A stretch of 64,000 bases of DNA. Origin: Arthrobacter zhaoxinii. Its GTDB lineage: Bacteria; Actinomycetota; Actinomycetes; Actinomycetales; Micrococcaceae. Positions 9,637 to 19,363 of this stretch are shown here, piece by piece (the first letter of the stretch is position 1; every line of letters starts with the position of its first letter). The translations under genes were made by a program, and so were the position numbers. Under the pieces are notes generated by a model. It was not told the origin of the DNA. It did no database searches and saw nothing but the letters and a program-made list of their open reading frames with translations. Where the stretch lies: positions 1,922,001-1,986,000 of the forward strand of contig NZ_CP104275.1 of NCBI RefSeq assembly GCF_025244925.1. Direction: 5' to 3'.

Positions 9637-10177
9637 TTAGAATTTCCCACGCTTATACTTGCCGTCATCGACCCAGATGAAGCAGTCGGAACTCGAAGTG
9701 ATAAGGATGGTGTCGGGCTTCGTTCCCTCTCCGACGATGTATATTTCAGCGATATCCGGAGATCGCAGCTGTACTTCATAGTCTCCCGCAGGAGCGGGAT
9801 CACGGATTTTGATGGTGAACCGGCTGTTCCGGTATTTCTCTTCGAACTCCCTGACGAGCGGCTCCGGCTCTGTCCCCTCTGTCAAAGTGACAGTGGTTGC
9901 CCCGTTCCAAGTCACCAAGGTATCGCTGCAATCGATCAAGACACCGGTCGGCAGCTGATCGACCTTGGCCACTTTGTCTTCGGGAATGGAATGGGCGATT
10001 TCCAGTTCCATAGCCTGCGTCCGGGCCTTGGCTTCCTGCCACGTCAACTCTGTCGCCACGGGTGTTTCCCCTTTCCGTTGAACTCGCAGATGTCGGCGCC
10101 ACCGACGAATCGTCGGCGCACCCAGTGAGGCCTGGAATCAGCCCGAAAACTGCGGCGCTACGTCGTACTGGAATCAT
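9637..10177 (-). pseudogene. Frameshifted copy of a tandemly duplicated lipoprotein gene
   Basis: Second copy of the lipoprotein at 10272–10802. The 5' part (ATG at 10177) encodes a signal peptide ending in a lipobox, LTGC, then ADDSS. A one-base insertion near 10070–10076, where this copy reads CCCCTTTCCG and the intact copy CTCCTTCCG, throws the frame. The remaining 140 codons (from about 10059) are intact in another frame and match the paralogue closely (TELTWQEAKARTQAMELEIAHS near the start, SSDCFxWVDDGxYKRGKF at the end). Unless the extra base is a sequencing error, the product cannot be exported. Confidence 0.75.
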
Positions 10178-10271
10178 TGCGTTACCACTAGGAGCAGGTC
10201 GCGAAGCGCTTTCATATTGGTCCCGGCTGTCGTTCGCGGTTGTCTTAGCCAGTACCGCCGCATAGGGAACC

Positions 10272-10802
10272 TTAGAACTTCCCACGCTTATAATTGCCGT
10301 CATCGACCCAGGGGAAGCAATCAGAACTAGACGCAATACGGATCGTGTAAGGCTCGAATCCCGGTGCGATGAGGTAGATTTCTGCGGTGTCCGGTGATAC
10401 CAACCCGACTTCGTAATGTCCCGCCGGAGCGGTACGCGTTTCGATGTTGAATCGAGTGTCCCGGTACTTCGCTTCGAACGCCCTGACTAGAGGCTCAGGC
10501 TCTGTCCCCTCAGTCAAAGTCACAGTCGTCGCCCCGTGCCAATTCACCAAGGTATCGCTGCAATCGATCAAGACACCGGTCGGCAGCTGATCGACCTTGG
10601 CCACTTTACTTCCGGGAAGGGAATGGGCGATTTCCAGTTCCATAGCCTGCGTCCGGGCCTTTGCTTCCTGCCACGTCAACTCTGTCGCCACGGGTGTTTC
10701 TCCTTCCGTTGAACTCGTAGATGTCGGCACTTCCTCGCCTGCGCAGCCGGCGAGGCTAAACAGCAAAACAACAACTGCGGCAGAGCTTCGTACTCGAATC
10801 AT
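10272..10802 (-). CDS. Putative lipoprotein (intact member of tandem pair)
   Basis: 176-residue secreted lipoprotein of unknown function. ATG follows a GAGGGAAGGGA ribosome-binding region. Residues 1–20 form a type II signal peptide with lipobox LAGC, followed by a Ser/Thr/Glu-rich linker. The mature domain contains two further cysteines (LIDCSDTLV and SSDCFPW) that could pair, and several beta-strand-like stretches. Its close relative downstream is frameshifted. I do not recognise the family. Low-GC DNA lies immediately upstream. Confidence 0.75.
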   Translation of the reverse strand: MIRVRSSAAVVVLLFSLAGCAGEEVPTSTSSTEGETPVATELTWQEAKARTQAMELEIAHSLPGSKVAKVDQLPTGVLIDCSDTLVNWHGATTVTLTEGTEPEPLVRAFEAKYRDTRFNIETRTAPAGHYEVGLVSPDTAEIYLIAPGFEPYTIRIASSSDCFPWVDDGNYKRGKF

Positions 10803-11557: not shown

Positions 11558-14359
11558 TCAGGGCGGCAGGCTCCGGACGGCAAGGGTGTTGCCTTGGTGG
11601 AATAGCAGCACCGTTCCGTACAGGTCCGTCCGGGCAACAGCCGATCCCGCAGCCTCAAGGCTGCTCAGGATCTGCGGCGCCGGATGGCCGTAGTCATTGT
11701 CTGCGCCGACCGAGATCAGGGCCAGGGAAGGCCGCAGGGTCCGGATCCAACTGTCACCGCCGTTGCGTGCCCCGTGGTGGGGAACCTTCAGTACATCCAC
11801 GCCTGCCCGCAGCTCCGGATGGGATGCGAGGATCCGGGCCGCGGTGTCCTCCTCGGCATCGCCGGTCAACAGTATCCGCAGCGGTTCCTCCCCCGGTTCC
11901 GGTGTGGCAACGGTCACCAGCAGGACGGCACTGGCGTTGTTCTCCTCCTCGTCCCCGGCCGCGGGCAGCGAACCGTCCGAGGCCGGCGGCCAGAGGACTT
12001 CCCACTGCACGCTGCCGGAGGTTCCTGCCATCCCGTTCGCCAGTCTTGTGCGGGGCGCCCCGGAACCGTCCAGCACTGCAGTCAGCTCGCGCGGCAGCCC
12101 GGGTCCGGCCGTCGAGTAGCCGATCTGCAGCACGGAACGGCCCGACAGAACTCCCGCCGCACCGCCGTAATGGTCCAGATGGGCATGCGTGAACACGAGG
12201 AGTTCCACGGTCCGCACACCCAACCGATCCAGACAGGCGTCCATGGGCTCCGGCTCCCCGCCGGCGTCTATTACGACGGCGCTGTCCGGGCCGGCACGGA
12301 TGGCAAACCCGTCGCCCTGCCCGACGTCGCAGGCTGCCAGCACCCACTCCTGAACCTGCCCGGGATCTTCCTGCAGAGCACGCGTAGTGAGGACGGCAGC
12401 CCCCGGAAAGGCCAGCAGAGCGGCTCCAGCGGCCGCCGTACGGGTGCGGCGGGAACCCCGGAACCCGGCCCGCGGAGGAAGTGGTTGATTCCGCGGGTTC
12501 CGCGGGGACTCCGGATACTGCTGGTTCACCTGCCTCCGCCGGCCACCGGGACCGGGCATGCCGCCGGTGCCGCGCAGCGAGAGATAGAGAATTCCGGCAG
12601 TTGCTGCCGCCGCCCCTGCTGCCATCAGCAACACACCCGGGGTGCCCTCCGGCCACGCTGCCAGTGCTCCCGGAACGGATTCAAAGAATCGAGCCGTCCC
12701 TGCCACCCACCAGGCTCCCGCAGCCGCGGTAAGGAGCGGCGGCACTGCCAATACCGGAGCGAACCCGATCAGCGCGACGGCAAGCATTCCGGCCACGGTC
12801 ACTGCCGGAACTACGGGGGCGGCCGCCAGATTCGCCGGAACGGAATACACCGGCAACTGCGGCTGCAGGAGCACCAGCACCGGGCCGCAGAACAGCTGTG
12901 CAGCCACGGGAATGGCCAGGGCTGCCGCGAGCCAGCGGGGCAGGCGATAGGACAGCACCCGGACCAGATGCGGCCCCAACACGACCAGGCCAAGGGTCGC
13001 GCAGACCGACAGAATGAACGCGTAACTTCCACACAGCCACGGATCCACACACAACAGGACCGTGATCGACAGGAAGAGCAGTGCGGCGGAAAGGCGTCCC
13101 CGCCCGGAGAGCACGGCGAGGGTTCCCAGCCCGCCCATGACGGCTGCGCGCAGCACACTGGGATCCGGCCGGACGAGGAGCACAAACGCGGCAAGTCCGG
13201 CCAGTGCCAGCAGCACCGCAGGCGCCTGCGGCATCCGAAGTGCCCGCGCAGAAAGGAAGATGAAGGCCAGCAGGTAGCTGCAGTTAGCACCGGAAACAGC
13301 CGTCAGGTGGGTCAGCCCCGTATCCTTCATGGCCTGCTCCAGCCCGGGGTCCAGGCCTCCCCTGTCGCCCAGCACCATGCCGGGGAGCAGACCGTCTACG
13401 GCTGCACCGTGTTCTTCGGCTACCCGGACAAAGGTGCTCCGGAGCGCTGCCGTTGCGGCGTACCATCCACCGGCAGGTGTGACCTCCGGTGGAGCAGCTG
13501 CCCGGAGCAGGCCCAGGTTACGGTCCCCTGCAGGAAGCGGCTGCAGGGATCCGGCGCTGGTAAACCGGTCCCCCAGTCTGACGGGCGCGTAGTCCTCCCC
13601 GCCGATCACCAGGAGGGTCGCCGACGTCCCGAACCGCTGCCCGGCTGCCGTTCCGGATTCAGCGACGGCATCGATGAGATACCGCGGACGGCCGGTGAAC
13701 CGGTCCGGTGCCCCCGGGCGGGCATCTGATGCTGCACGCAGTTCCACGGTCACAGCGGCCTCTTCGGCGATGAGACCGGAGAGAGGGCCGGCCGTGCGCA
13801 CAGACAGGCTGGCCGCTGCGCCGGCGCATACCAATGCCGCCGCCGCCATCGGGACTGCGGCACCTCGAAGGGCCGCTGCGGTCCCCCGCTGTATGGGGCG
13901 CTTTCCCCAGCTAGCGCGCGGTCCCGGGGACGTTTCCGGGCTGGCGACGACTACCGACCCCTTCCGAATCCGCCCGCGCGAGGCCGTCAGCAGCAACAGG
14001 ACCGCCAGAACAGCTGCCGTGCCGGCCAAAGCCCAGCCAGCCGGAGGCGGGAGCCGGACCACGGCGTAGGCGGCAGCCCATACGGTTGCTGCCGCCGGCA
14101 ATAGCCGCAGTTCACGGAGCGGCAGCGGCGCGTCTGCTGCAGCGGTTTCGCGGTTGTTCCAGGCCTCCCGCAGCTTGACTCCTAGACGCTTTGCCCGCTG
14201 TCTGCCGACGGCCGTGCCGGATTCCGCTTCCGCACCCCTTTCCGATTCCGTCGGACCGACACCCTCCGAACCGGCACCCTGCGGACCACCTGGCCGGGTT
14301 TCCGGATTCAGTGCCGAGGTCACATACCGTGACCATGCGCTTTCGGACCCGCTGGACAT
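11558..14359 (-). CDS. comEC: ComEC/Rec2 family competence DNA-uptake channel
   Basis: Inner-membrane channel through which single-stranded DNA enters during transformation. It has 933 residues. A hydrophilic N-terminal tail (about 1–75) is followed by membrane helices and the N-terminal ComEC domain. The central competence domain (about 320–640) contains GDRGGLDPGLEQAMKDTGLTHLTAVSGANCSYLL and many helices. A C-terminal metallo-beta-lactamase-fold domain (about 690–933) carries CDVGQGDGF and the metal motif THAHLDH near residue 725. All expected blocks are present, so it looks functional. A partial extra copy of its 5' end lies at 17061–17259. Upstream is a decayed comEA; the intact comEA is 2.9 kb away. 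Confidence 0.93.
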   Translation of the reverse strand: MSSGSESAWSRYVTSALNPETRPGGPQGAGSEGVGPTESERGAEAESGTAVGRQRAKRLGVKLREAWNNRETAAADAPLPLRELRLLPAAATVWAAAYAVVRLPPPAGWALAGTAAVLAVLLLLTASRGRIRKGSVVVASPETSPGPRASWGKRPIQRGTAAALRGAAVPMAAAALVCAGAAASLSVRTAGPLSGLIAEEAAVTVELRAASDARPGAPDRFTGRPRYLIDAVAESGTAAGQRFGTSATLLVIGGEDYAPVRLGDRFTSAGSLQPLPAGDRNLGLLRAAAPPEVTPAGGWYAATAALRSTFVRVAEEHGAAVDGLLPGMVLGDRGGLDPGLEQAMKDTGLTHLTAVSGANCSYLLAFIFLSARALRMPQAPAVLLALAGLAAFVLLVRPDPSVLRAAVMGGLGTLAVLSGRGRLSAALLFLSITVLLCVDPWLCGSYAFILSVCATLGLVVLGPHLVRVLSYRLPRWLAAALAIPVAAQLFCGPVLVLLQPQLPVYSVPANLAAAPVVPAVTVAGMLAVALIGFAPVLAVPPLLTAAAGAWWVAGTARFFESVPGALAAWPEGTPGVLLMAAGAAAATAGILYLSLRGTGGMPGPGGRRRQVNQQYPESPRNPRNQPLPPRAGFRGSRRTRTAAAGAALLAFPGAAVLTTRALQEDPGQVQEWVLAACDVGQGDGFAIRAGPDSAVVIDAGGEPEPMDACLDRLGVRTVELLVFTHAHLDHYGGAAGVLSGRSVLQIGYSTAGPGLPRELTAVLDGSGAPRTRLANGMAGTSGSVQWEVLWPPASDGSLPAAGDEEENNASAVLLVTVATPEPGEEPLRILLTGDAEEDTAARILASHPELRAGVDVLKVPHHGARNGGDSWIRTLRPSLALISVGADNDYGHPAPQILSSLEAAGSAVARTDLYGTVLLFHQGNTLAVRSLPP

Positions 14360-14369
14360 GCGCTGTCCG

Positions 14370-14776
14370 CTAGACCGTGACCAACGGGAGCAACGGGAGC
14401 AACGCCACCATCATGGCCTCGCCGATCCCGGGGACGGCGTCCAGATCCTCCGGCCGGCTGAACCCCCATGCTCGGTACGCCACGCAATCATCCGCTCGGC
14501 CAGAACCGGCCCGACCGTCGGCAGTGTCTGAAGCTCGGTGGAATCGGTGGTGTTCAGGTTGGCGCTGTCCGAAGCACCGCTGCTAGCCTGCGCCCCCGGA
14601 TCTGGGTCCCGAAGCACAGCAACCGCCGCCCCGCAGCCCGGGAACAGGCAAACCGCCAGTACCGCTGCGGGCAGGGGAAAGGCCCACCTCCGCTTCAGCC
14701 CGGATGAAGGGCTGCCTGCCGGCTCCGACTCATCCGGGACGTCGACGTCCGGGCTGTCCAAACGATGTTGTGCCAT
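14370..14776 (-). pseudogene. Decayed comEA copy adjacent to comEC
   Basis: Second comEA-like sequence, starting MAQHRLDSPDVDVPDE. The N-terminal membrane helix is kept. An in-frame deletion of about 450 bases relative to the intact copy removes the Pro-rich linker and the SLBB domain, so the helix joins almost directly to the helix-hairpin-helix region (SANLNTTDSTELQTLPTVG). A one-base deletion just after WRTEHG then shifts the frame, and the end no longer reads DLDAVPGIGEA. The ancestral stop (TAG at 14370–14372) sits exactly where the intact copy has its own. It is not expected to give a working DNA receptor. Confidence 0.85.
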
Positions 14777-15008
14777 CGGGCAAACCTACGATCCCGGCCA
14801 GCCATGTTTCCGCCGTTGTTCGCGTAGCTGGTTGTACCCACAGCGAGCCGTAGCCCGCCCCGGCGCTGTTGAGGACAAGACAAACGGTGGAACGAAGCAG
14901 CACCGCCGCACGTCCTGTTTGCGCTGTAGCCTGCGCACCTACCTGGGCGAGCAGACCGCATGCCGTAGGAGGCCGGAATCGTAGTCCAGGTCTTCGCTGT
15001 TCCCACAA

Positions 15009-16304
15009 TCAGTTCTCGCAGCCGACCCCGTCCCCGTCACGGTCGAATTTGGATTGCCACCCCGGGTCGCCGGCCCGGATTGGGGCCGCACCAGCAGCCT
15101 TCGCTGCATCGCAGTTCGGATAGTAGACATTGGCCGGTGCTGCCGGGGCGGGGGCAGGGGCTTCAACGGTGAGCGGTTCAGCCGCCGGAGCGGGTTCCGG
15201 TGCGACCATAACACCGCCGTCGGCAGGAACCGGCTGGTCAGGGCACGTGGACGTGAGGATGTTCCGGATCGCATCGGACTCAGCCTGCGTCATCCACAGC
15301 CCATACTTGGCTTTCACCGCAGTCTGCAGGGCCACATACTCACAACGGAAACCCTTGTTCGGCGGCAGCCACGTCGCAGCGTCACCGTCACCCTTGGCCC
15401 CGTTCGTGGAGCCGTCCACAGCCAGTAGATTCAGCGGATCGTTGGCGAACGCTTCACGCTGGTCCTGTCCCATCTGCTGGGCACCCTTCTGCCAGGCGTC
15501 GGAGAGCGCCACCACATGGTCGATTTGGACAGCGTCGGAAGTACCTTCCCCGCGCACGAAGTTGATCACCGATCCCGTGAACGGGTCCAGCAGGGTGCCG
15601 GAGGTTACAACACAGTTATTCGTACCGGGCTTGAAGCTGACGGATTCCAGGTCGCGCAGGAGCAAGTCATTGCGCTGGTCGCAGCCATTGCGGTCAACGT
15701 CCTTCCATGCGGGCCCGAACTGGTCCCGGTCGTAGCCGGTCTTCGGTGCCCTGCCCTTGATGGGGATGGTGTCCAGCTGGGCCAGGGCGGTGCCGACCGC
15801 TGCAGGTGCCGGTGCAGCCGCTTCAGGCTGAGGCTCCGGTTCGGACGCTGTAACAGGAGTCGACTCAGGTTCAGGCGCCGGTGCATCCGCTTCAGGTTGA
15901 AGCTCCGGTTCGGACGCTGTAACAGGAGTCGGCTCAGGTTCGGACGAAGGGGCCGCCGTCGGAGATGTCGAGGCCGACGGCGATGATGTCGGTGCCGGAT
16001 CAGAAGCCAGCGAAGGGGCGTCAAGCTCAGAAGCGGGAGCCAGCGCGCTGGCCACGATTAGCGTGACGACCGATGCGGCCACCGCTATGGCTCCACCGCG
16101 CCGGCCAGCAGGGAGCCGGGCCCAGGACCGCCGGCCGGTAATGAGGACGTATAGACCGGTGAGCAAACCGCAGAAAGCCAGCAGTCCCAGACCGGCGGTG
16201 ACGCTGGGGAACATTGCAGCTATAACCAGGAGTCCCAGGATGGAGCCGGTAACTATGGTCACCGACCCGAGCTTCCGCTTTTGGGTGGGTTTGATGTCGG
16301 TCAT
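15009..16304 (-). CDS. Secreted or membrane-anchored HNH nuclease (DUF1524/GmrSD C-terminal-like) with excalibur domain
   Basis: 431 residues from ATG 16304, which has AAAGGAG five bases upstream; an ATG 15 bases earlier lacks such a site. Two to three membrane helices lie at about residues 14–95. A Pro/Glu/Ala/Ser-rich extracellular linker (about 100–170) contains an internal duplication of the PVTASEPExQPEA type. The nuclease domain (about 190–360) has IDHVVALSDAWQKGAQ, DPLNLLAVDGSTNGAKGD and a CEYVALQTAVKAKYGLWMT segment typical of DUF1524/HNH proteins. The C-terminus is an excalibur calcium-binding motif (NCDAAKAAG, DRDGDGVGCEN). It likely degrades or nicks extracellular DNA. It lies between duplicated comEA/comEC sequences. 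Confidence 0.85.
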   Translation of the reverse strand: MTDIKPTQKRKLGSVTIVTGSILGLLVIAAMFPSVTAGLGLLAFCGLLTGLYVLITGRRSWARLPAGRRGGAIAVAASVVTLIVASALAPASELDAPSLASDPAPTSSPSASTSPTAAPSSEPEPTPVTASEPELQPEADAPAPEPESTPVTASEPEPQPEAAAPAPAAVGTALAQLDTIPIKGRAPKTGYDRDQFGPAWKDVDRNGCDQRNDLLLRDLESVSFKPGTNNCVVTSGTLLDPFTGSVINFVRGEGTSDAVQIDHVVALSDAWQKGAQQMGQDQREAFANDPLNLLAVDGSTNGAKGDGDAATWLPPNKGFRCEYVALQTAVKAKYGLWMTQAESDAIRNILTSTCPDQPVPADGGVMVAPEPAPAAEPLTVEAPAPAPAAPANVYYPNCDAAKAAGAAPIRAGDPGWQSKFDRDGDGVGCEN

Positions 16305-17060
16305 AGGTCTCCTTTCCATGGGTTACTTCCCCATAAAAAGGTTAAGCCGAGTGCGGCAATCGCCGGTTGAGGCAGGCATGAACAGCACGCTCAGGAGTTC
16401 GTCCAAGTTGGCTGCGATAGCGCTCTCAAAGTAGTTCTTCTTGCTGAGAGGCTGTGCGCCAGCCCCGCCCGGCCCGGCCCTCGAGTATGGCAGCGCTGCG
16501 TGAAGGAGGCCCGCGAGGCCCAGCCCAGCACCTAGCAGTGTGAAGTATGGAACGGGTCGATATTCTGGGGATCATCCACGCCATTAGTCCACAACATGAT
16601 GTCGGTTATGGTGTGGAAGCGGCGGGACAACATTCTGACCCGATCTTGGGCGGTCGCGATGGAATCGCCGCGTGCTTCTTGATCGACGCACCTAGTTGGG
16701 CTTAGCCGGCTGCCGGACTGGCGCAGCCAGCCCTGTTCTTCCTCGCCGGCCTAGTCCCCCTTCAAGCCTCTGAAATTCCAGAGACGCTAAACTGCCTCAA
16801 GGCAATAAGCCAGCTCCGCCTGTCGTTTGGCTGGAGCGCGTCCGTCTCATAACTTGGCGGCTCTGCACTCTGGCGGCGTGTGCTGGCGAATATGTACTAC
16901 CTGAACAACTTGAACCGGACTAGAAATCAGTGTCCACGGTATCCAATTGCTCCTGGGTGAAGGCATGCAGCATCAGATGCCCACCCGGGGGCAACGGGCC
17001 GGTTAGGCGACCCTCCTGGTGAGTCGGCGGGGAGGACTTTGCCCTCATCAGGCTGGGGAC
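16305..17060. other. Gene-poor stretch within the com-locus insertion
   Basis: About 750 bases between the nuclease gene and the comEC remnant. I see no complete gene. Near 16920–17060 on the minus strand there is a short frame that looks like the C-terminal tail of a lost gene. The rest shows no coding pattern I can support. Confidence 0.5.
16920..17060 (-). pseudogene. Possible C-terminal remnant of an unidentified gene
   Basis: The minus-strand frame ends GGHLMLHAFTQEQLDTVDTDF and a TAG at 16920–16922. Codon use is protein-like but there is no start. The frame runs into the broken comEC copy. The family is not recognised. It may be the tail of a gene cut by the rearrangement, or chance. 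Confidence 0.3.
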
Positions 17061-17259
17061 CGCAGTTCCACGGTCACAGCGGCCTCTTCGGTGATGAGAC
17101 CGAAAATGGGGCCGGCCGTGCGCACAGCCAGGCTGGCGGCTGCGCCGGCACAGACCAGTGCCCCCAGCGGACCGGCACCATGCGGAACACTGGCCGGGTT
17201 TCCGGATTCAGTGCCGAGGCAACATACCGTGACCATCTGCTTTCAGACCCGCTCGACAC
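17061..17259 (-). pseudogene. comEC 5' fragment downstream of intact comEA
   Basis: ATG at 17259 gives MSSGSESRWSRYVASALNPE, matching the comEC N-terminus. About 425 bases corresponding to part of comEC are then missing. The frame shifts, and a second homologous block (VCAGAAASLAVRTAGPIFG, then EEAAVTVELR) runs to 17061, where similarity ends abruptly. The spacing to the comEA stop equals that of the real comEC start from the decayed comEA. This is therefore a truncated duplicate. Confidence 0.85.
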
Positions 17260-17269
17260 GCGCTGTCCG

Positions 17270-18094
17270 CTAGACCGTGACCAACGGGAGCAACGCCGCC
17301 ATCATGGCCTCGCCGATCCCGGGGACGGCGTCCAGATCCTCCGGCCGGCTGAAGCTTCCGTGCTCGGTACGCCACGCAATGATCCGCTCGGCCAGGACCG
17401 GCCCGACCCTCGGCAGGGTCTGCAGCTCGGTGGAATCGGCGGTGTTCAGGTTGATGCTGTCCGTGGCCCCGCCGTCGGCCGGCGGCCCGGGACCCTGCAC
17501 ACCGGAACCCTTCGCAGCGGAGGTGCTGCCCGGGCCTGCTCCGTCCGCGCCGCCTGCGGGCGGCGCTTCGCCGATCCGCGGAACGATCACCATTGCACCG
17601 TCCTCAGCCAGGGCCGCCAGGTTCACAGCGGTGAGGTCCGCGTCAGCCGCCGTTCCACCGGCTGCATCAACGGCATCGATGATCCGGCTGCCCGGCAGCA
17701 GACGGACGATCCCTGGGCGCTGCACGGCTCCGGCTATATGCACCACCAGTGCTGCCTGGCCCTCTCCTCCCGGGCCCGCTGACCGGGAGGGCGACGGAAC
17801 GGGTGCCGGAGAGGGCAGGCCGGGAGCCTCGGTGGCCGCCGGACTATCGCCGCCGTCAGCGGGCGCCGGGGCACTGCTGGCAGGAGGGGACAACTCGATG
17901 CTGGCCACCGGCACGGGACTTCGATCCCGGAGCAGCACGACCGCCACCCCGCACCCCAGCAGGAGACAGACCGCCAGCACCGCTGCGGGCAGGGAAAACG
18001 CCCACCGGCGCCGCAGTCCGGGAGGATCCTCGTCAGCGGGACCGGGACCGTCCATGTCGTGAATATCGGCGGTGTCCCAACGATGCTGTGCCAT
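17270..18094 (-). CDS. comEA: ComEA family competence DNA receptor (intact copy)
   Basis: DNA-binding receptor of the transformation apparatus, 274 residues. A cytoplasmic tail is followed by one membrane helix (about 31–53). A Pro/Ser/Ala-rich linker follows. The SLBB domain is at about 112–165 (VVHIAGAVQRPGIVRLLPGSR, with VNLAALAEDGAMVIVP). The C-terminal helix-hairpin-helix pair has INLNTADSTELQTLPRVGPVLAERIIAWR and DLDAVPGIGEAMM. It starts at ATG 18094. A broken comEC fragment follows it, so the intact partner comEC is no longer adjacent. Confidence 0.93.
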   Translation of the reverse strand: MAQHRWDTADIHDMDGPGPADEDPPGLRRRWAFSLPAAVLAVCLLLGCGVAVVLLRDRSPVPVASIELSPPASSAPAPADGGDSPAATEAPGLPSPAPVPSPSRSAGPGGEGQAALVVHIAGAVQRPGIVRLLPGSRIIDAVDAAGGTAADADLTAVNLAALAEDGAMVIVPRIGEAPPAGGADGAGPGSTSAAKGSGVQGPGPPADGGATDSINLNTADSTELQTLPRVGPVLAERIIAWRTEHGSFSRPEDLDAVPGIGEAMMAALLPLVTV

Positions 18095-18241
18095 GCGAAG
18101 AACTTAGGATCACCAGCCCGGCGGAGAGATTCCGGTGAACCCGCCGGTGGACCGGCAGGAGCGTGCCGCAGCCCGAAACGGCACTGTTGAGGACAGGACC
18201 GCCGCAAAAAGCGGGCACCGGGGCCATGCCCGGCACGAGGG

Positions 18242-19363
18242 TTATCCGCGTTTCGTTTTGCCTCCGGCGAACTTCACCCGTAACGCCGGGTCCCCGGGTA
18301 CCGGCTTTTCCGGCGCCTTGCCGCCCGCTGCGCCGCCGCCCGCCGGCGCCTTGCCGCCTGCTGCGCCGCCAGCTGCGCCGCCTGCGTCGGTGGTGGCGGG
18401 AGCCATGTCGGCCGACGCCGCGGAGTCGTCCGGAGCCGGTTCGTCTCCCGCAACGGCCACGGCCAGCACCCCCAGCCCGGCGTGTGCGGCCAGGACGGCA
18501 GGCAGCGGGCAGATGAGGATCTCCACCTCCGGCGCCGCAGCACCGATGACGCCGGCCAACCGCTCTGCTTCGGCGGCATTACCGAAGTGGTGCACCGCGG
18601 CGCGGACCCTCCCGGGGCGGGCGGCAATGTCCTGCTGAACAAGTTCGGCCAGCCGGGCCAGTGCCTTGGGTGCGGTCCGGACGCGTTCCAGCGGAAGCAC
18701 TTTACCGTCGCGTACTACCAGGATCGGCTTTACGGCCAGCAGGGTGCCCAGCCAGCCCGACGCTGCACCGATCCGCCCGCCCCGGCGCAGCTGGTCCAGG
18801 CTGGGGACATAGAAGAGGATGGTGGACTCGGCCGCTGCCGCCCGGGCGCAGGCCGCCACCCCGGCTGCGGAGGCACCGGCCCGGGCGCTCTCCGTCGCGG
18901 CCGCCACGGCGAATCCGAGGCCCATGGCCGCCGTCGCGCTGTCGATGACCTCTACGGGAATGTCGGCGGAACGGGCGGCCAGCCGCGCCGAATCCACGGT
19001 CCCGGACAGCTGCCCGGAGAGATGAATCGATACCACGGCGGTGCAGCCCGCCGCGGCAAGCTCGCGGTAGGCCGCTTCGAACTGTCCCGGGGCCGGCCGG
19101 GAGGTCCGTACTTCATGGCCCTGCGCCATAGCCAGGGCAAGGGCCGGAATCAGATCCGCGGATCCTTCGCCGTAGATCTGGTCCCCGATCATCACAGGCA
19201 TCGGAACCACCCGGACGAAATCGCCGGCGTGGGCCGCTTCCGTCCAGCCGTCGGGCAGGGCGGAGGCGGAATCGGTCACCACTCCCACGGACGGGCCGGG
19301 GGCGGCAGCGGTTTCCCGCTGCCGCCCCTTGGCCCGCGAAGCGAGCCGTTCCAGCCAGTCCAC
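18242..19363 (-). CDS. DegV family protein (fatty-acid-binding)
   Basis: 373 residues. The DegV fold opens with VGVVTDSASALPDGW and contains SIHLSGQLSGTVDSARLAA and LRRGGRIGAASGWLGTLLAVKPIL. Members bind a fatty acid and can serve fatty acid kinase as FakB. The C-terminal 65 residues form an extra Ala/Gly/Lys/Pro-rich tail with a duplicated GGAAGGKAP unit, not part of the fold. The GTG start lies 12 bases after the leuS stop, so it is probably cotranscribed with leuS. Its physiological role here is unknown. Confidence 0.88.
   Translation of the reverse strand: MDWLERLASRAKGRQRETAAAPGPSVGVVTDSASALPDGWTEAAHAGDFVRVVPMPVMIGDQIYGEGSADLIPALALAMAQGHEVRTSRPAPGQFEAAYRELAAAGCTAVVSIHLSGQLSGTVDSARLAARSADIPVEVIDSATAAMGLGFAVAAATESARAGASAAGVAACARAAAAESTILFYVPSLDQLRRGGRIGAASGWLGTLLAVKPILVVRDGKVLPLERVRTAPKALARLAELVQQDIAARPGRVRAAVHHFGNAAEAERLAGVIGAAAPEVEILICPLPAVLAAHAGLGVLAVAVAGDEPAPDDSAASADMAPATTDAGGAAGGAAGGKAPAGGGAAGGKAPEKPVPGDPALRVKFAGGKTKRG

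Follow-up and report, generated by a model that had tools for sequence, protein, structure and literature searches.

A duplicated comEA-comEC junction brackets a nuclease gene in Arthrobacter zhaoxinii, one of several repeat-bracketed inserts in the competence cluster

In the genome of Arthrobacter zhaoxinii, a nuclease gene lies between two copies of the comEA-comEC junction of the competence operon. We studied this locus within a stretch of 64,000 nt (hereafter the window; GCF_025244925.1, NZ_CP104275.1 positions 1,922,001-1,986,000, forward strand), and we believe that it is probably a decayed insertion-duplication, in which imported DNA carrying the nuclease gene, along with a related species' 5' part of comEA and the region upstream of it, entered the native operon by recombination. 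The junction is duplicated, one copy has a foreign 5' part, the arrangement is present in two strains, and decay is going on separately in each of them. Nor is the locus alone: in two genera, nine apparently independent inserts with mostly unrelated cargo lie between direct repeats of degV-comEA-comEC DNA. These recurrent inserts are most likely insertion-duplications as well, made by homologous or half-illegitimate recombination with the DNA of relatives.

A duplicated junction around a nuclease gene

Read along the minus strand, the locus begins with leuS (21874-19376), upstream of degV (18242..19363, assigned by family search and cluster comparison), and continues with an intact comEA, a 5' fragment of comEC, the nuclease insert, a decayed comEA and an intact comEC. 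The intact comEA (copy A, 17270..18094) encodes 274 aa with SLBB and HHH_3 domains and is native by phylogeny; the intact comEC (11558..14359) encodes 933 aa with Competence and Lactamase_B domains, and the NCBIfam matches of these genes to comE and ComEC_Rec2 fall under the curated cut-offs. The comEC fragment of the left copy has a first direct piece beginning at the start-codon position (17171..17259, by repeat alignment) and, after a deletion of ~428 nt, a second (17061..17165, ~codons 173-208); a further comEC piece is inverted (16963..17058, plus strand). DNA without similarity to com genes follows (14911..16962, minus strand, by alignment) and contains the nuclease gene (15009..16319, minus strand), whose 436-aa product has GmrSD_C (HNH-type, E=3.5e-20) and Excalibur (E=2.9e-14) domains and, by eye, N-terminal hydrophobic stretches. 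The second copy opens with a comEA upstream region (14777..14910) that resembles, by alignment and tree, that of G018, one of 29 genus genomes whose com clusters were compared (the window genome is G000 and A. zhaoxinii zg-Y108 is G028). The decayed comEA (copy B, 14776-14370 as a whole, minus strand) has a 5' part (14607..14776) that is G018-like by alignment, tree and site patterns, and a 3' part (14370..14580), from the HHH region to the stop, that is native-like by alignment and site patterns and carries a 1-nt frameshift; between them ~450 nt are deleted and 26 nt remain.

Aligned with each other, the two copies of the junction agree at 87% of positions over 335 nt (E about 1e-114) and at 90% over a further 105 nt, far above chance, and the distance between comEA stop and comEC start does not differ between them, with an offset of 2900 throughout. 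A preliminary description, made from the letters of this DNA, had proposed the gene order with partial copies around an HNH/excalibur nuclease gene, the equal spacing, and deletions of about 425 and 450 bases accompanied by frameshifts; each of these parts was found where it had been placed, the 1-nt gap being present in the comEC fragment and the decayed comEA alike. That description did not include the inverted comEC piece or the uneven identity of the copies, to which we return below, nor, being limited to this DNA, the second strain or the further inserts of the cluster.

The same gene order occurs in zg-Y108, where the insert is 94.8% identical to that of the window. The comEC fragment of that strain has decayed otherwise, with the second direct piece lost and more of the inverted piece retained (~codons 208-265), and the earlier suggestion that one comEA and one comEC decayed after the event is supported. 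Assemblers can be confused by repeats, but the window genome is a single contig of 3.47 Mb and the order is matched in a separate assembly of another strain with decay differences of its own; misassembly is ruled out on these grounds, and we give an assembly artefact next to no credence. Between the strains, dN/dS is 0.20 for comEA, 0.27 for comEC and 0.28 for the nuclease gene, and the intact comEA and comEC are under constraint in A. zhaoxinii.

Nor is the arrangement ancestral for the genus. All 27 remaining genomes have comEA, none of the 27 has the nuclease between comEA and comEC, and a nuclease gene in that position is seen only in the two A. zhaoxinii strains. In near relatives, including G018, G020, G021, G026 and G027, comEA lies directly beside comEC; the empty site for the nuclease insert, an uninterrupted comEA-comEC, was accordingly seen in other species only. 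Within the nuclease gene itself, a 69-bp tandem duplication (93%) occupies a proline/glutamate-rich linker (15803-15940), in zg-Y108 likewise.

Differing histories of the two comEA copies

From ~115-150 nt upstream through ~codon 60, copies A and B are 70.5% identical, and copy B is 83.7% identical to G018. In the tree of this upstream/5' region, B groups with G018 (100/99) and a tree uniting A with B is rejected (p-AU, the P value of the approximately unbiased test, 0.004), whereas in 15 core genes (22 kb) the species stands next to a six-genome clade that includes G018, not next to G018 alone. On this evidence copy A behaves like the native one and the 5' part of B like an import. The 3' half has another history: A and B are 92% alike there, and each is at most 85% identical to any other compared genome. 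At differing sites in the HHH part the other genomes side with A (8-11 against 0-4), making B the odd copy, and in the inverted comEC piece they mostly side with B (G018 by 8 against 0, G017 by only 5 against 4), making A the odd one. Such patterns are expected if both copies are native and the redundant one decayed. By these comparisons, foreign origin is confined to the 5' part of the decayed comEA and its upstream region, and a native origin for the 3' parts of both copies is well supported. The right copy is then foreign beside the cargo and native farther on, with moderate support for its 3' portion.

This mosaic bears on the suggestion in the preliminary description that a comEA-comEC segment was imported by a single crossover. 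A duplicative insertion with foreign DNA stands, but the segment is not uniformly foreign; a uniformly foreign one, integrated in plain Campbell fashion, should have left a foreign comEC fragment, none is seen, and the claim as worded is therefore unsupported. In the event that we favour, DNA of a relative, in which the cargo adjoined a piece of the com cluster, would pair with the resident cluster. One homologous crossover, together with circularisation or an illegitimate joint, would place the cargo between two copies of the target and leave the comEA-3'/comEC-5' segment as a direct repeat on either side of it. The left comEA and the right comEC would remain whole, and the redundant comEC fragment and second comEA would be left to decay. 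Cargo and duplication would have come in one step, presumably by natural transformation.

Several observations weigh against such an event. In the tree of the 3' half the support for A with B (83/90) is not strong, and the test leaves a grouping of B with G018 standing (p-AU 0.145). In two of the four pieces, namely from the comEA stop to the comEC start and over comEC codons 173-208, the differing sites are about evenly split or depend on the genome. No donor genome turned up in which the nuclease adjoins a G018-like comEA, and G018 itself is without the nuclease at comEA. Homologues of the nuclease, 82-84% identical, do occur in G025, G024 and G007, outside the com genes, but they share just the gene and ~45 nt upstream with the insert; arrival of the insert as a block from those loci is unsupported, since similarity ends there.

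The native 3' parts on either side also fit self-duplication, and hence a stepwise history, in which a tandem duplication of comEA-comEC was followed by a separate nuclease insertion at the seam and later by replacement with a G018-like 5' part; alternatively, gene conversion could have evened out the 3' halves. Homologous replacement is common in the relatives, and an example lies nearby: between the two strains dS is 0.155 in degV, as against 0.03 in leuS and 0.032 in comEC, with the change beginning at the leuS/degV border, and degV is likely a recombination tract between the strains. (Its raised divergence lies next to a further insert of zg-Y108, described below, and fits recombination there.) A stepwise history, however, needs more events; a cargo-free duplication was found in none of the 29 genomes; and a like architecture with differing cargo in other lineages suggests that cargo and duplication arrived jointly. 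We regard stepwise assembly as possible, though rather unlikely, and prefer the import of cargo and comEA 5' part into the native operon.

The copy ahead of comEC has kept an upstream region as well. A TCCTC-ACA core within an TCYTGTCCTCAACA-like element, ~100 nt ahead of comEA, is common to eight upstream regions (those of A, B and six genomes). A pattern search found the exact TCYTGTCCTCAACA pattern twice in the genome, ahead of copy A (TCCTGTCCTCAACA, 18185..18198, minus strand) and ahead of copy B (TCTTGTCCTCAACA, 14867..14880, minus strand); one further site with one mismatch (position 817889), by eye among transporter-like genes, offers no competence lead. Allowing up to one mismatch, the element precedes comEA in 9/29 genus genomes (G000, G017, G018, G020, G021, G022, G026, G027 and G028). 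The intact comEA is 2.9 kb from comEC, yet comEC is preceded by a comEA-type upstream region; the right copy brought its own, so that comEC probably still has a com promoter, in which the conserved element may play a part. The element could also be a competence-regulator site.

Repeat-bracketed inserts across the cluster

Direct repeats were searched in the cluster of the genus genomes, and pairs were also scored against shuffled maxima. Seven of the ten inserts examined between degV and comEC are bracketed, the independence of the seven being judged from differing cargo and joints and not from a tree; the ten do not include the ~1-kb degV-comEA spacer of G018, G020, G021, G022 and G026, which may be ancestral. 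Besides the nuclease insert, bracketed by cluster DNA in both G000 and G028, zg-Y108 has, between degV and comEA, an insert of ~9 kb that contains a sugar-uptake operon and is flanked by a repeat of 184 nt at 94.6%. The window holds the empty site of this insertion, a stretch of degV 3' end and comEA upstream region (18143..18326, minus strand, by repeat alignment) that matches its two copies at 98.9% and 95.7%. In G025, ~5.6 kb lie between a partial and an intact comEA, and the 544-nt repeat (81%) climbs in identity from ~70% to 97% along its length; a weaker rise is seen in G028. G017 has an insert of ~1.1 kb with repeats of 230 and 120 nt at 87% and 83%, and G001 one of ~6 kb with repeats of 60 and 71 nt. 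The two remaining cases, an APH-family gene in G007 and G024 and lipoprotein-like genes in G008, both lie between comEA and comEC, and in both the final comEA codons and stop are repeated right ahead of comEC; the repeats score 61 against a shuffled maximum of 28 in G007 and 74 against 29 in G008, and in G024 alone 35 against 35. The repeats measure 60 to ~540 nt, and in the window and the eight further cases, two of them outside the genus, the left copy is cut short at its 3' end and the right copy at its 5' end. As for the APH-family gene itself, the G007 copy (L065:4974-5873) matches NCBIfam macrolide phosphotransferase models under their cut-offs, and the gene is present in G024 too.

Two further results weigh against the explanation that we favour. 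Repeats were not found at three of the ten inserts, namely a 13-kb operon in G009/G010, an HNH_5-like gene in G013 and a gene pair in G007/G024/G025 (where G007 scores 32 against a shuffled 28), and the G017 pair shows no rise of identity along the repeat.

Direct repeats that flank cargo and leave one gene copy intact are also what a site-specific integrative element would produce, its attachment site lying in comEA or degV, the repeats being attL and attR, and the element supplying a replacement gene end. But the repeats lie at varied places in the cluster (degV end, comEA 5' third, comEA end, comEC start) and differ by 2-30%, with no fixed attachment site, and no integrase or transposase family was found among the 30 proteins scanned, which include cargo of the bracketed inserts and are a subset of the open reading frames. 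We consider such an element very unlikely.

Other repeats were set aside. Those between comEC and holA with ~678-nt spacing (G004, G006, G011, G015 and G001) were dropped as cases; in the three inspected (G006, G011 and G001) both copies lie within one gene, whose product by eye resembles a tandem of two TetR-type regulators. Also between comEC and holA, the window has a tandem pair of small, similar genes for secreted lipoprotein-like products without a Pfam match (sm1/sm2, 9637-10802, a 585-nt repeat at 80.5%), of which zg-Y108 has a single one and whose relatives lie between comEA and comEC in G008; this pair and a 104-nt repeat in the G008 relatives are gene-family duplications and were not counted. 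In G022 (L073), the comEC match covers codons 5-397 only and the remainder of the 14-kb stretch yielded no holA, so that comEC may be interrupted.

Junctions within the cluster are broken up far more frequently than core junctions nearby. A control of 30 core junctions in 21 genomes (54-76 kb each, and so a local rather than a genome-wide ranking) gave gaps of more than 1500 bases at 12/62 genome-junctions of degV/comEA, comEA/comEC and comEC/holA, as against 3/460 at 23 others; the Fisher p of about 1e-9 is too small owing to shared descent. Four junctions were excluded, three that are always long and g24/g29. The last (window about 33.2-37 kb) is variable in its own right, exceeding 1500 bases in 16/20 genomes, and no bracketing repeats were found there. 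In ~1.03 Mb outside the cluster there were three non-tandem direct repeats (at least 55 nt, at least 72%), all with ~1.62-kb spacing in one large gene, which we take to be carB. The ~177 kb of cluster DNA held bracketing repeats in G000, G001, G017, G025 and G028 and a gene-family repeat in G008, these totals omitting G022, whose stretch lacks holA.

Outside the genus, a search of 139 genomes (E<=1e-15) found comEA in 136 and comEC in 139, and by eye at least eight loci that look split or distant were picked among the matches listed (G050, G077, G086, G100, G140, G143, G149 and G155). Six were examined, and bracketing repeats were found in G077 and G100, both of one other genus, and not in G149, G050, G155 or G140. 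The cargo of G077 is a Fic-family gene, to which a Fic gene in G149 is similar, and a comEC 5' fragment (85-96%) stands immediately after comEA; in G100 the cargo is ~10.5 kb of catabolic genes, and a solute-binding protein gene separates comEA from the comEC 5' fragment (93-98%). In G100, G149 and G050 comEC opens with a comEA-like leader (32-35 nt at 75-77% in G149 and G050; MGSH-W starts by eye), perhaps a relic of earlier insertions of this kind. Two unbracketed loci have features of their own. The comEA-comEC insert of G155 (L143) contains a 53% homologue of the window nuclease domain and, by eye, two transposase-like genes; G140 (L146, L147) has phage-like genes by eye between comEA and a comEC matched only from codon 353 on, and here the com locus does look broken.

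The G155 homologue, and the HNH_5-like gene in the comEA-comEC gap of G013 (below the family cut-off), might suggest that the nuclease was recruited among the com genes as a helper of DNA uptake, in the manner of an entry nuclease. Its orientation is that of comEA and comEC, it looks membrane-anchored by eye, and its dN/dS between the strains points the same way. Yet close homologues in G025, G024 and G007 lie outside the com genes, most other inserts hold unrelated genes, and the G155 insert has its transposase-like genes besides; functional recruitment therefore strikes us as improbable.

Entry of foreign DNA into the competence operon

In unconventional circularizable structures cargo lies between direct repeats without a recombinase of its own, as seems to be the case here. 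A close parallel to the proposed event comes from Escherichia coli, where most clones obtained with DNA homologous at one end had duplications of the target (56/60 by PCR); the 14 sequenced measured 109-950 bp and were attributed to circularised molecules (PMC3240628). Insertion-duplication and homology-facilitated illegitimate recombination, as presented there, share with our locus the one-end homology, the added foreign DNA and the duplicated piece of target. Homology-facilitated illegitimate recombination as described mostly deletes target DNA, however, whereas the target here is duplicated, so that the term does not apply in its strict sense; and the present events arose in nature, recur within one operon and are known from sequence alone. 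Hotspots without mobile elements, reported to be over-represented in transformable species, likewise have variable cargo between conserved genes and signs of recombination in the flanks, and they mostly lack mobile-element genes, the proteins scanned here also having shown no integrase or transposase (PMC5635113); the double crossover at flanking genes proposed for them would leave no repeats, in contrast to the cluster fragments that bracket cargo here, in a competence operon. In the transformation merodiploids of pneumococcus, donor DNA also gives rise to a tandem duplication with an altered copy next to an intact one, but these are repeat-driven and can be large, while ours are short with cargo in between (PMC3784515). 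The islands in comM are acquired DNA in a transformation gene too, yet those elements inactivate the gene, and here an intact comEA and an intact comEC persist (PMC11472951). Element-free hotspots, insertion-duplication, duplications made by transformation and the disruption of transformation genes by islands are thus already known; what looks new is their recurrence in the competence operon, and a single targeted search of one open-access library found no paper on repeated bracketed insertion in comEA-comEC with one intact copy of each gene.

That this cluster is so often affected could reflect tolerance of insertions, frequent exchange at a fast-evolving gene, or exposure coupled to competence. 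Natural transformation is probably the route by which the recurrent inserts entered. In Micrococcus luteus, DNA uptake in culture is known, and comEA and comEC are described as overlapping, co-transcribed and essential (PMC8467076); insertions that leave both genes whole should therefore persist. On a more speculative note, and one that we would sooner doubt than accept, the competence operon of Micrococcaceae might be a preferred landing site for the DNA that it imports itself: strong expression during competence would let strands of relatives recombine there, selection would spare only duplicative insertions that leave a complete comEA and a complete comEC, both with an upstream region, and the operon would gather cargo, bracketed by fragments of itself, without a recombinase.

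The repeats are readable footprints of the entry of foreign genes, without mobile elements, into a chromosome. Every entry is marked by them, the part that has diverged indicates the lineage of the donor, and in one case the empty site is preserved in a sister strain. Since the target is the operon for DNA uptake, the relation between competence and the landing place of imported DNA becomes directly testable, and a split com operon is not necessarily a broken one.

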